Shown here: positions 7,241-13,393 of the stretch, in pieces
How the letters are laid out: every line of letters begins with the position of its first letter
Position numbering within the stretch: position 1 is the first letter of the stretch
Notes under the pieces: model-generated
What the model saw: the letters and a program-made list of their open reading frames with translations, nothing else
Database searches by the model: none
Told to the model about the DNA's origin: nothing
Assembly: GCA_913062955.1 (NCBI GenBank)
Contig: CAJXZP010000042.1
Location: 1 to 35,248 of the forward strand
DNA: 35,248 bases
Reading direction: 5' to 3'
Source of the DNA: an uncultured Flavobacteriales bacterium
GTDB lineage: Bacteria > Bacteroidota > Bacteroidia > Flavobacteriales_G > Salibacteraceae
Position numbers and translations under genes: made by a program

Positions 7241-8278
7241 ATGTCTGACAACAATTCAACGCAATCCAGCGATTTTTCTTCAGCAAGTTTACTGTTCTTT
7301 ATATTAAAATGGCGAAAGCCAATTCTAGTTGTAACCATTGCAACGGCTATTATTTCTGCCGCTGTTTCATTTATGATTACGGAACGTTATTTATCTACAG
7401 CCATTTTCTTTCCGGCCAATAACTCATCCCTTTCCAAAGGTTTGATGACCGAAGATGCACAAGGGAAGAATGACCTTTCGAAATTTGGAGAGGAAGAACA
7501 GGCCGAGGCAATGCTTCAGATCTTGAATAGCGATAAAATTAGATGGCGTTTATGGAGTAAGTATCAAATGATGGATCATTATGATATTGATCCACTTGGT
7601 GCAAATCCACAAACGAAACTAGCCAATAAATGGGACGATAACGTGAGTTATAAACGGACAGAGTTCAACTCTATTCGAATTGATGTGTTGGATATAAGTC
7701 CAGATACCGCTGCCTTACTAGCCAATGAAATTGCAGCATTGGTGGATACCATGCGTAATGAGATGATTCGTTCAAGAGCACAAGCAGCTTACGAAATTAT
7801 GGACGAAGAATACAGTAGTTTGGTTTCTTATATGACCGACCTAGATGATTCATTAACGGTATTAAGAAACAAGGGCGTTCAAGATTACGAAAAGCAAATT
7901 GAAATGATTACAGGGGTTTATTACCAGGCTATTGCGGATAATAATACCCGTGCAGTGAAACAATTGCAAATGGAATTGGATACCTTAGCTAAATATGGTT
8001 CTGCATCTAAGTCCATGACTGAAAACTTAGAGTTTTTACGGGAACGATTGGTATTGCAAAAAGGTAAATACGATGAGATTAGAGTAGATGCCACAAAAAA
8101 TCTAACCTGGAAATTTGTGGTTAACGAAGCAGTTGCCGCTGAGAAAAAGGAATATCCAATACGTTGGTTAATTGTAGTGGTGTCTACAATGGCGTCCTTG
8201 TTATTATCGGTTTTATCCATTATTGCGGTGGAGAACTACAACAAATACATGACTCAGTTAAAGCAAGGTAAGAAATAA
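7241..8278 (+). CDS. Wzz/GumC-type polysaccharide chain-length determinant (no kinase domain)
   Basis: A 345-aa protein with the two-membrane-helix layout of polysaccharide co-polymerases: helix one at about 27-47 after a short cytoplasmic N-terminus, a long periplasmic part rich in coiled-coil-like helix (about 185-290, with many Glu/Lys/Leu), and helix two at about 309-328 preceded by a Pro (EYPIRW). It ends without any Walker-type tyrosine kinase domain, so it is the stand-alone form. It would set the length of O-antigen, capsule or exopolysaccharide chains at the inner membrane. The next gene, an O-antigen ligase/polymerase homologue, begins 6 bp later and supports the function. The family assignment rests on topology and context more than on a sharp motif. 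Confidence 0.78.
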   Translation: MSDNNSTQSSDFSSASLLFFILKWRKPILVVTIATAIISAAVSFMITERYLSTAIFFPANNSSLSKGLMTEDAQGKNDLSKFGEEEQAEAMLQILNSDKIRWRLWSKYQMMDHYDIDPLGANPQTKLANKWDDNVSYKRTEFNSIRIDVLDISPDTAALLANEIAALVDTMRNEMIRSRAQAAYEIMDEEYSSLVSYMTDLDDSLTVLRNKGVQDYEKQIEMITGVYYQAIADNNTRAVKQLQMELDTLAKYGSASKSMTENLEFLRERLVLQKGKYDEIRVDATKNLTWKFVVNEAVAAEKKEYPIRWLIVVVSTMASLLLSVLSIIAVENYNKYMTQLKQGKK

Positions 8279-8284
8279 TATATC

Positions 8285-9721
8285 TTGGAAAACCAACTGT
8301 CATATAAACAGTTTTACTTTGTTCTTGGAGCATTTGCCCTTTTGAATGGGATATTTCTATATGCAGAAATATTTTATTTTTTGGCCATTCCTGCGGCCTT
8401 GGCCATTGTGGGCCTAGCGCTTTTTAAATTAGACTGGCTTTTACTATTCATTATGTTCCTTGTTCCTTTGTCAATAACGGTGGAGGATGTAGGAGGGGGA
8501 ATGGGCTTGACCCTGCCTACCGATCCGTTGCTTTTTGGTGCCATGGCGGTATTTATTCTTAAAAATTTATTTGAGGGTAATTACGATGGTAGGATTTTAA
8601 AGAATCCGATTACCCTTTCTGTTATTGCGATGTTGGTTTGGATGATGTTTAGCACCTTGTTTAGTCGGATGCCCGTAGTGTCTGTTAAGTTTTTTATGGC
8701 TAAACTATGGTTCATCATACCGTTCTTTTTTGGTGGGGTTCTGTTGTTCAAAAATCCCAAGAATATTATCCGGATCACCTGGTTGTTTGTCGTGCCTATG
8801 GCTGGTGTAATTATTTATACCATTTTTCGTCAATATGCTCGTGGGTTTGATATGCAATCAGCACATTGGGTAATGCAGCCCTTTTTTCCGGATCATACTT
8901 CCTATGGCGCAATGATGGCTTTTTTCATTCCTTCCATGTTCTCACATATCAATAAATTGAAGTGGGATATTAATACCCGAATTTTGGGTGGCGTATTATT
9001 AGCGATATTCTTTCTCGGTACCGTTTTGTCATTAACCCGTGCCGCTTGGGTAAGTTTGATAATTGTGCTAGGTTTCTACATTTTGTTAAAACTGAAAATT
9101 AGATGGTGGATTGTTGCCCTTTCAGGGGTTACAATGGTTACTTTGGTGTTGGTTTTTTGGGTGCCCTTGATGCATAAACTTGAGCAGAATAGGCAAGATT
9201 CGAGTGGTGATATCGCAGAGCACGTTGAGTCTATGAGTAATGTAGCTACGGATGCAAGTAATCTGGAACGTTTAAATAGGTGGAATGCCGCTTTTCGAAT
9301 GTTTGATGAAAGCCCCGTGGTAGGAACAGGACCGGGAACGTATTCGTTTTTATATGCGCCCTATCAAACCAGTAATTCAATGACCTTGATATCCACAAAT
9401 TTTGGGGATATGGGAAATGCACACTCCGAATATTTCGGCCCCTTGGCCGAACAAGGAGTACTCGGATTGGTCCTGTGGTTGTTGGTGGTGTTTTTCATTA
9501 TGTATCGTGGAATTGTGACGTATTACCGATTAAACGATCCGACCAATAAAGCGTTGATTATGGGAGTGATCCTTGGGTTGACCACCTACTTGGTGCATGG
9601 TATTTTAAATAATTTTTTAGATACGGATAAGGCAGCTGTTCCCTTTTGGGCTTTTGTCGCTGTGATTGTAGCGATGGATGTCTATTACGAACGAGAAACC
9701 ACTGAGCATAAGGAAGCATAG
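8285..9721 (+). CDS. O-antigen ligase / Wzy-like polymerase membrane protein
   Basis: A 478-aa polytopic membrane protein with about 10-12 hydrophobic segments. The Wzy_C-type signature is clear: LSLTRAAWVSL near residues 245-255, then a large periplasmic loop with RLNRWNAAFRMFDESPVVG and TGPGTYSFLY, and GNAHSEYFGPLAEQGVLG before the last helices. This protein either joins O-antigen to lipid A core or polymerises repeat units; the sequence does not decide which. It starts with TTG at 8285, only 6 bp after the Wzz-like gene; the next in-frame Met lies about 57 residues in, after the first membrane helices, so the TTG start is preferred. It forms a two-gene unit with the Wzz-like gene. Confidence 0.82.
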   Translation: MENQLSYKQFYFVLGAFALLNGIFLYAEIFYFLAIPAALAIVGLALFKLDWLLLFIMFLVPLSITVEDVGGGMGLTLPTDPLLFGAMAVFILKNLFEGNYDGRILKNPITLSVIAMLVWMMFSTLFSRMPVVSVKFFMAKLWFIIPFFFGGVLLFKNPKNIIRITWLFVVPMAGVIIYTIFRQYARGFDMQSAHWVMQPFFPDHTSYGAMMAFFIPSMFSHINKLKWDINTRILGGVLLAIFFLGTVLSLTRAAWVSLIIVLGFYILLKLKIRWWIVALSGVTMVTLVLVFWVPLMHKLEQNRQDSSGDIAEHVESMSNVATDASNLERLNRWNAAFRMFDESPVVGTGPGTYSFLYAPYQTSNSMTLISTNFGDMGNAHSEYFGPLAEQGVLGLVLWLLVVFFIMYRGIVTYYRLNDPTNKALIMGVILGLTTYLVHGILNNFLDTDKAAVPFWAFVAVIVAMDVYYERETTEHKEA

Positions 9722-9792
9722 TTTATTTTTATTATTCAGATGATTAAACTACTTTCACGGTCTAACTAATTAACCATGAGACCTTATTCCGT

Positions 9793-10188
9793 TTGCTTTT
9801 ATTTATTTATTTATTTATTTTTCTCCTGTTAGGTTCTTGTTGCTCTCAGAAGTATGATAACCCCCCACGTATTTGGTTAACCTATATCGGGTATCGTGAA
9901 ATGCCAAAAGTGTATCAAATACGAACGCAAAAGAATAATTTGACTAAAGTGATAGATGTTGTGGAGCTAGAAAGTTTTGGGTATGGAGATCCACAACGAA
10001 ATAATATGACGGTGGAGCCCATACTGCTAGAAGATTTTAGTTACATTTTAATGAGTTTTGATTCCACGCAACTCGATACTATTACTGGAATACGTGCCAC
10101 TCGAAATAGGTGTGGCCGACTGGAAGAAATCTCGTATTATTGGAATGGTGATTATTCTACCGAGTCTTCTTTGCAAGTGGAACTGTAA
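9793..10188 (+). CDS. Small lipoprotein of unknown function, possibly phase-variable (frame broken at repeat)
   Basis: The frame running from 9793 encodes a hydrophobic stretch followed by a lipobox (FLLLGSCCSQ) and about 110 hydrophilic residues that match no family I know. The only start codon in this frame ahead of the lipobox is TTG at 9793, which would give a signal peptide with no basic residue. A better start, ATG at 9776, reads MRPYSVCFYLFIYLF through the tetranucleotide tract but hits TAG at 9830 because it is in another frame. One extra ATTT unit (or two fewer) would fuse the ATG to the lipoprotein frame and give a normal charged signal peptide. So the gene is either translated from TTG or is off in this sequence. 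Its end overlaps the convergent lipoprotein gene by 37 bp. Confidence 0.6.
   Translation: MLLFIYLFIFLLLGSCCSQKYDNPPRIWLTYIGYREMPKVYQIRTQKNNLTKVIDVVELESFGYGDPQRNNMTVEPILLEDFSYILMSFDSTQLDTITGIRATRNRCGRLEEISYYWNGDYSTESSLQVEL
9801..9820 (+). repeat. Tetranucleotide simple repeat (ATTT)5 in a signal-peptide region
   Basis: Five perfect ATTT copies, preceded by TTTT and followed by TT. The tract sits between the ATG at 9776 and the lipobox codons of the small lipoprotein. Its unit length is not a multiple of three, so copy-number change switches frame. Confidence 0.9.
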
Positions 10189-10649
10189 GGAACTGGACTC
10201 TTAGATAACTTAGCCCAACCCACTTTCATGGTGAAATCAAAATTGAAGTTTTCTTTTAAATGAAAATTGGACTCCCAGGTTTGGGCTAGTTTTCTATTTG
10301 TTTTGGGTAAAACTAAAAGGATGACCATTTTATTCTTTTCTACCGTTTGTGTTGGATTGATGGCCCCCATTAATTCTCCTCGGATTTCAAATCCATAGTT
10401 AGTGGGAGATAGTTGTGGACTCTGAATTTGTGTGGACCCTACTTTGACTTGAATACCTTTTTCTGCAATATGAATGGTAAATGGGATTTTTCCCATTTCG
10501 ATATCGAAGTCTTGATCCAAAAAATGACCAGAACCGGTCCATTTTCCAATAAGGTAAGGATGTGTGTTAATGACACTTTGATTGGATGTTTTTTTAGGAG
10601 TGCACCCTAATAAAATCCCCATAAGCATAAGTATGATTGTGTGTTTCAT
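10152..10649 (-). CDS. Small lipoprotein of unknown function
   Basis: A 165-aa protein with a clean lipoprotein signal: MKHTIILMLMGILLGCTPKK, lipobox LLGC with Cys16. The mature part has a WTGSGHF motif followed by alternating beta-like strands (DFDIEMGKIPFTIHI, IQVKVGSTQIQ), resembling small lipocalin-like or beta-sandwich periplasmic lipoproteins, but I cannot assign a family. It lies opposite to the possibly phase-variable lipoprotein gene, and the two coding regions share their last 37 bp. Confidence 0.65.
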   Translation of the reverse strand: MKHTIILMLMGILLGCTPKKTSNQSVINTHPYLIGKWTGSGHFLDQDFDIEMGKIPFTIHIAEKGIQVKVGSTQIQSPQLSPTNYGFEIRGELMGAINPTQTVEKNKMVILLVLPKTNRKLAQTWESNFHLKENFNFDFTMKVGWAKLSKSPVPYSSTCKEDSVE

Positions 10650-11989: not shown

Positions 11990-12361
11990 CTATTTATTTA
12001 GATCAATTTTGGGTAAGCCTTTTCCTTCGGCTTGATCCTCATCAATGACACCTAAAGTTTTACCCATGTATTTTCCAAAATCACGCATGTCGTGCGCTTC
12101 TTCCGTTAAACCTGTTGCTTTTTCAAAGGTGTCGGCCATGGTCATGATGTTTTGGAAGGTGAACATTTTCATTTCATCCACGGTGAAATCTTTCGTCCAC
12201 AAATCAATAGTCATGGCATTCTTTTTATCTGGATCCCATACAGATAAAAATGATGCTGTTACTTTTCCTTTTTGATCCCCATCGGTTGCCGACCATTCTA
12301 TTTGCTCAGGAATGTGGTTTTCATCTAATGAGATCTCAATTTTTACTTCTGATTTTTCCAT
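11990..12361 (-). CDS. gldC: Gliding motility protein GldC
   Basis: A 123-aa soluble acidic protein without signal peptide. It begins MEKSEVKIEISLDENHIPEQ and continues WSATDGDQKGKVTASFLSVW and MTIDLWTKDFTVDEMKMF, the pattern of GldC, which is conserved through Bacteroidota. In Flavobacterium johnsoniae GldC is encoded next to GldB and increases gliding efficiency without being essential; the molecular role is unknown. Here it starts 9 bp after gldB ends and is followed within 3 bp by an epimerase gene, so the three are surely co-transcribed. Confidence 0.92.
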   Translation of the reverse strand: MEKSEVKIEISLDENHIPEQIEWSATDGDQKGKVTASFLSVWDPDKKNAMTIDLWTKDFTVDEMKMFTFQNIMTMADTFEKATGLTEEAHDMRDFGKYMGKTLGVIDEDQAEGKGLPKIDLNK

Positions 12362-12370
12362 GTGATAATT

Positions 12371-13393
12371 CTATCTTGGTTTGTATTTTGAATCACGCAA
12401 AATGGTTTGTGCGTCTTCGTTTTGCATTAATTGTTTTAATGTAATATCTGGATTTTCATCCATGTACTTTCGTACAATTTGCCATCCTACCCAATAGCCA
12501 ATTTGTGCGGGTGATTCTCTAGGAAACCCAGTCGAAAAAGGGCCTGGCCCAGTTAACGAACGGATGACATGAAGATCGGTACTGTAAAATGCTTCTTCTT
12601 CAATGAGCTTCGCCCAAACAGAAGGTTCATTTTCTTTACACCAGGTAATTTGATCTTCCAAAAATCCTATTTTAAAATGATCTGGTGCAAAAGGAAACAT
12701 GGCATCCATGGCATAGATGGATTTTCCGTAATGTACAATTTGAGATAGGACATCGTCTTTTTTGTTTTTGGGTTCAAATTCACTCAACAACCAGCCTCTC
12801 ATCATATCGTACACCATGTATTCTGAAGTACATTTATTACTGAGGTAGCCAGGTAATTGCGCTAAAGTGTAAATACTATTAGAATCGCCCATATACATGT
12901 CTAAGCCCACTGCTAGAACAGAATCAGTAACCACAATGTTCCTATTTAAGCCCGCTACCATACTGATCACTACTGGAGGTTTACGATTCGGGAAGTAGTA
13001 ATGGTAATACTTAAATGCAGTCTCCATTTCTATCCGATAAGGTTCAACATCGGTGTAAATACTATCCACTTCTTTAAATAATTGATGTACATTTTTGTCC
13101 GTCAAAAAGCCCATGACCTTTCGTTCGTAATTGGGTGCTTTAACATCTCCAAAATTCATTACTCGTCCGTTATAAAAACGGTAAAAACTACCATAAACAG
13201 ATAGTAATGAATCATTGTAGTGGTCAAAACTTGACTTGGTAGCTAGTCCAGTAAGGTCATGCTCAAATCGTAGCCATTTCATTTCTAGGTTTTGATTGGA
13301 TATATCTACCTCGAATTTATTGGTGTTGCAAGAACTTAAACCTAAAATTAGACCCAAAAAAGTATGGAAAATGATTGCTGTTTTTTTGTTCAT
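12371..13393 (-). CDS. gldB: Gliding motility lipoprotein GldB
   Basis: A 340-aa lipoprotein with signal MNKKTAIIFHTFLGLILGLS and lipobox LSSC (Cys22). The mature part has the GldB patterns MKWLRFEHDL, FPNRKPPVVISMVAGLNRN, VGLDMYMGDS, and IGYWVGWQIVRKYMDENPD near the C-terminus. Known family: GldB is required for gliding in F. johnsoniae and is associated with the type IX secretion/gliding machinery in the periplasm. The layout resembles HExxH-free relatives of DUF2268-like proteins; no catalytic metal site is evident. First gene of the minus-strand operon gldB-gldC-epimerase. It is divergent from the beta-barrel gene at 13460, with 66 bp between the two starts. Confidence 0.92.
   Translation of the reverse strand: MNKKTAIIFHTFLGLILGLSSCNTNKFEVDISNQNLEMKWLRFEHDLTGLATKSSFDHYNDSLLSVYGSFYRFYNGRVMNFGDVKAPNYERKVMGFLTDKNVHQLFKEVDSIYTDVEPYRIEMETAFKYYHYYFPNRKPPVVISMVAGLNRNIVVTDSVLAVGLDMYMGDSNSIYTLAQLPGYLSNKCTSEYMVYDMMRGWLLSEFEPKNKKDDVLSQIVHYGKSIYAMDAMFPFAPDHFKIGFLEDQITWCKENEPSVWAKLIEEEAFYSTDLHVIRSLTGPGPFSTGFPRESPAQIGYWVGWQIVRKYMDENPDITLKQLMQNEDAQTILRDSKYKPR

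Follow-up and report, generated by a model that had tools for sequence, protein, structure and literature searches.

A putative small lipoprotein gene in the 35,248-nucleotide stretch of DNA analyzed here (the window) carries, within the code of its signal peptide, a tetranucleotide repeat tract that separates a well-placed ATG from the reading frame of the remaining protein. The reading that we favor, tentatively and at slightly less than an even chance, is that translation begins at ATG 9776, that (TTTA)n encodes the core of the signal peptide, and that slipped-strand changes in the repeat switch the lipoprotein ON and OFF, the assembled copy being OFF. Judged from its sequence, this candidate phase-variable gene is a plausible case of the known repeat-in-signal-peptide type. 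The features of the locus are listed in table 1.

Table 1. Position of the repeat tract, the two competing reading frames and the neighboring genes in the window
Feature	Position	Strand	Basis
Wzz-type chain-length determinant	7241..8278	+	Pfam PF02706, 31.9 bits against a cut-off of 25.5
O-antigen ligase family protein (Wzy_C), TTG start	8285..9721	+	Pfam PF04932, E 2e-22
Short ORF MRPYSVCFYLFIYLFFSC, opened by ATG 9776 (proposed true start), crossing the repeat and closed by TAG 9830-9832; OFF frame of the assembly	9776..9832	+	Translation and start-context score
131-aa ORF from TTG 9793; lipobox LLGS-C, Cys 9838-9840; putative orphan lipoprotein body	9793..10188	+	ORF list, frame-specific codon score
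(TTTA)5.75 tetranucleotide tract	9798..9820	+	TRF, period-4 scan, genome pattern search
Convergent 165-aa lipoprotein-like ORF	10152..10649	-	ORF list; 3' end overlaps orphan ORF by 37 bp

The Repeat Tract

The tract reads TTT(ATTT)5 over 23 bp and was found once in the 3.9-Mb genome by a genome-wide pattern search. Statistics on period-4 tracts were collected over 1.24 Mb of genome stretches (31% of the genome), in which it is the only one of at least 20 bp, the next longest measuring 17 bp and then 13 bp. Under an order-5 Markov model, approximately 1.4e-4 such tracts are expected per genome, and the tract is far beyond chance. In the sister species, 400 kb were scanned and no period-4 tract longer than 13 bp was found. 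The scanned DNA of the two species holds no other tetranucleotide tract of at least five copies, and so the genome shows no visible habit of repeat switching, which counts against a switch. The 5.75 units lie just above the cut-off of at least five tetranucleotide units applied in a survey of the Neisseria phasome (PMC5953494); this number would rank low among tracts that slip often, which also counts against a switch.

The second-longest period-4 tract, (CAAT)4.25 at C3:222-238, was considered as another switch candidate and rejected, given that it lies in a duplicated stretch with no convincing gene. Beside it, at the contig end, more than 100 bp recur as a nearly exact duplicate less than 300 bp away (C3:1-480; L095 1-480). 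Elsewhere on this contig (C3:7487-7506) there is an intergenic (CCAAT)4, and on contig C4 (L096 19956-20000) GGAAGTT/GGAAGAC heptamer repeats directly follow a 560-aa ORF and reach the end of the stretch examined.

The assembly is a draft of 131 contigs, and the true tract might differ in length and be in frame, or the contig might be the consensus of a mixed population. However, an ordinary short read is long enough to span 23 bp, and errors of 4 bp are uncommon in a tract of this size. We regard an artifact of assembly or consensus as quite improbable.

Two Reading Frames That the Repeat Could Join

The tract lies between ATG 9776 and the body of the protein in the lipobox frame, and its unit of 4 bp is not a multiple of 3. 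TTTA repeats encode Phe-Ile-Tyr-Leu (FIYL) in all three frames (TTT-ATT-TAT-TTA), and so, irrespective of its length, the tract contains no stop and codes for hydrophobic residues, and only the downstream frame changes. The preliminary description had reported that the ORF from ATG 9776 runs through the repeat and stops at TAG 9830, and that the lipobox and the protein body lie in another frame with TTG 9793 as its start; translation and the ORF list bear out both statements. The lipobox frame is open from approximately position 9766, has TTG 9793 as its first listed start and carries FLLLGSCC. The gain of one unit or the loss of two joins ATG 9776 to this frame, yielding products of 138 or 134 aa, in which an Arg2 signal peptide extends over 23 residues to the Cys at 6.75 units and over 19 at 3.75 units. 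At tract counts other than 3.75, 6.75 and so on, ATG 9776 yields peptides of 14-29 residues. The joining is thus as exact as had been claimed, but it does not constitute independent evidence, since 4 bp equal 1 (mod 3) and an open out-of-frame ATG is always one unit, gained or lost, away from the frame in question.

The two frames could also be connected during translation, by a programmed -1 ribosomal frameshift at TTT-TTC (9818-9823), just 5' of TAG 9830. The product, as read from the sequence, would be MRPYSVCFYLFIYLFF-LLLGSC, a good lipoprotein signal. However, A TTT TTC departs from the canonical slippery heptamer X XXY YYZ, and for slippage during transcription a run of T5 would be short; we regard a frameshift of this kind as very improbable.

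ATG 9776 as the Likely Start Codon

Ribosome profiling in Flavobacterium johnsoniae indicates that Bacteroidetes initiate translation without a Shine-Dalgarno sequence, that adenines at -3, -6 and -12/-13 matter, and that AUG is depleted around start codons (PMC6847099). We scored start contexts with a weight matrix built from the genome's own genes, which displays the A-rich block at -10 to -13 seen at Bacteroidetes starts. In line with these determinants (PMC6847099), ATG 9776 is preceded by an A at -3 and, farther 5', by a stretch rich in A; its context ranks at the 97th percentile when compared with all genomic ATGs and at the 65th when compared with presumed true starts. The corresponding percentiles are the 65th and 14th for TTG 9793, and the 66th and 14th for the non-standard start ATT 9769. 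An equally strong out-of-frame upstream ATG running into the gene is found in six of 513 genes with an ATG start and in none of 157 genes with another start.

The composition of signal peptides provides additional clues. We collected 26 lipoprotein-type signals in the 1.24 Mb, 25 of which have an ATG start and Lys/Arg, the commonest length being 19 residues. At in-frame tract lengths, the reading from ATG 9776, MRPYSVCFYLFI(YLFI)FLLLGSC, combines a basic n-region, a hydrophobic core and the lipobox Cys over 19 or 23 residues. The reading from TTG 9793 as assembled, MLLFIYLFIFLLLGSC, contains neither Lys nor Arg and has no basic n-region, as the preliminary description had pointed out; it is the sole signal of the 26 to lack both ATG and Lys/Arg and also the shortest, at 16 residues. 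The start context, the rarity of such decoy ATGs and the signal-peptide statistics together suggest that ATG 9776 is likely the real start. The assembled copy is out of frame with it, and thus most likely OFF. Whatever the mechanism, an annotation from TTG 9793 by automatic pipelines probably has the wrong N-terminus.

In an alternative scenario, the gene would be translated constitutively from TTG 9793 (or from ATT 9769), with the ATG irrelevant and the repeat merely a hydrophobic segment. TTG 8285 of the ligase scores like real ATGs in start context, and the ligase orthologue of the sister species (76% identical) also starts with TTG, so that the use of TTG as such is normal here, as the earlier caution about this codon had anticipated. 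Furthermore, the exact repeat codons have a probability of 2.6% given the amino acids, and amino-acid choice thus accounts for part of the repeat, if not all of it. However, the contexts of TTG 9793 and ATT 9769 are both poor, the resulting signal would be the exception in charge and length described above, and a strong rival ATG stands 17 nt before the TTG, within a region in which Bacteroidetes as a rule show a depletion of AUG (PMC6847099). Constitutive translation is in our view unlikely.

An Orphan Gene Next to an O-antigen Locus

Past the Cys, the DNA is free of stops only in the lipobox frame, whose worst codon log-ratio over six backgrounds exceeds that of 99.97% of wrong-frame segments. 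The 115 codons downstream of the tract are intact and coding-like, with a codon score that is low among true genes (approximately 5th-7th percentile). Homologues of the 131-aa protein were found in none of 100 relatives, 42 genomes of the order and 395 genomes of the class, nor in genomic contigs (genome_contigs), viral contigs or plasmids, and the protein has no match in Pfam, NCBIfam, PHROGs or PDB sequences. The one match at E 0.04 in the search of the 42 genomes, in a frame of 496 codons, was judged to be due to chance. The gene is known from one genome among those searched. A single-sequence AlphaFold2 model (pLDDT 63, pTM 0.55) consists of three strands, two helices and three strands; with this weak model, Foldseek gave no match at E <= 0.001, and VIA Z was at most 3.4. 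The lack of homologues in all these searches, and of a clearly similar solved structure for a single-sequence model of such pLDDT, would fit an ORF that is not a gene at all. Nevertheless, the codon log-ratio and the position of the lipobox right after a hydrophobic core make this extremely improbable. From the lipobox we infer that the product is anchored in a membrane, with a surface or periplasmic location.

The orphan gene begins 54 bp past the Wzz-ligase pair, a gap at which the ligase gene is a possible operon partner. Pfam identifies both neighbors as had been proposed. The suggested link to O-antigen holds as adjacency but not as association, for neither in the sister species nor at the other ligase loci examined in relatives is the ligase followed by a small lipoprotein gene. 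In the sister species, the ligase is directly followed by a convergent elongation-factor-G-like gene (family read from sequence). The gene thus appears to be an orphan specific to its lineage, located where gene order is broken.

Several observations concern the surrounding genes. The ligase orthologue of a same-genus genome (G001) likewise begins with TTG, at the residue that corresponds (MENQLSYK / MEDKLSYK); the non-ATG start is conserved. The convergent ORF has a 58% identical relative on another contig of a same-genus genome (G002), while its matches in G003 and G006 hold an in-frame stop; its overlap with the orphan ORF comprises the last residues, outside the aligned part. A short way downstream, the gliding-motility genes gldC and gldB were identified with NCBIfam (11990-13393, minus strand).

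The isolated occurrence of the gene bears on another explanation, a one-off frameshift. The gene would formerly have been in frame from ATG 9776 and then slipped a single time at the repeat, so that a lineage-specific ORF became a pseudogene, still young and now silent, and no switching would be under selection. The orphan status of the gene and its absence at the locus of the sister species are consistent with such an origin, as are the low codon score and the presence of a sole long tetranucleotide tract in the sampled genome. However, the downstream codons are intact and coding-like, so that the gene can have been inactivated only recently, if at all, and the tract is still able to revert. 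We consider a one-off frameshift unlikely.

A Proposed Translational Switch

In the switch that we put forward, a small lineage-specific lipoprotein gene would start at ATG 9776 and (TTTA)n would supply the hydrophobic core of its signal peptide. With n = 5.75, as here, translation from the ATG would end at TAG 9830 and the lipoprotein would be OFF, or weakly made from TTG 9793. Slippage would alter the TTTA count, and a gain of one unit or a loss of two would turn the gene ON, the Arg2 signal peptide then measuring 23 or 19 residues up to the Cys; counts of 3.75, 6.75 and so on would give the lipoprotein. We further presume that the length of the tract differs within the population, that selection rather than accident underlies these differences, and that the protein is exposed as a lipoprotein at the cell surface. 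The phase-variable reading of the preliminary description is in part supported: the features expected of a genuine start are present at the ATG but not at the TTG, and the exceptional repeat occupies a position at which changes in its length would switch the frame.

A broader claim would be that we are dealing with a contingency locus of the tetranucleotide kind in a lineage of Bacteroidota, away from the well-studied pathogens, and that its repeat acts as a length-tolerant signal-peptide core and controls a lineage-specific orphan lipoprotein beside an O-antigen ligase; we hold this to be possible but doubtful. In the literature searched we found no precedent for repeat-driven phase variation in flavobacteria, which does not prove its absence, and the examples of phase variation given for Bacteroides in a recent review are DNA inversions (PMC11868660). 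Should the tract vary, translational switching by repeats, which is known chiefly from pathogens adapted to hosts, would extend to a lineage of Bacteroidota whose relatives are largely uncultured, and the surface protein might experience selection that fluctuates, for instance through phages or grazers.

Comparison with Known Systems

Three repeat systems of Neisseria invite comparison. The nadA gene has a tract of the same unit class (TAAA/TTTA), studied in constructs with 4-13 copies and present in natural isolates at 5-12 (PMC2791445). However, that tract lies in the promoter and tunes transcription, whereas the TTTA tract described here is in coding sequence and shifts the frame. With its repeats inside the code of a signal peptide, the proposed mechanism would correspond to those of opa and autB. 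In opa, the gain or loss of CTCTT pentamers in the leader-peptide code switches translation ON and OFF (PMC3960869, PMC5354566), and the frame-shifting repeats are thus found in signal-peptide-coding DNA, as in the (TTTA)5.75 gene. In contrast to opa, which encodes a beta-barrel, the present candidate has a 4-bp unit in few copies and a predicted lipoprotein product, belongs to an unrelated lineage and is known from one assembled tract length. The autB gene carries AAGC tetranucleotide repeats in its signal-sequence code and is OFF in most strains, the reference strain being OFF and differing from the long ORF by two units (PMC5118866). It encodes an autotransporter, for which many strains have been sequenced and slippage has been reported, whereas the present candidate encodes an orphan and is known from a single genome. 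Yet the likeness extends to the tetranucleotide tract inside the signal sequence, the putative OFF state and the two-unit distance to the long ORF.
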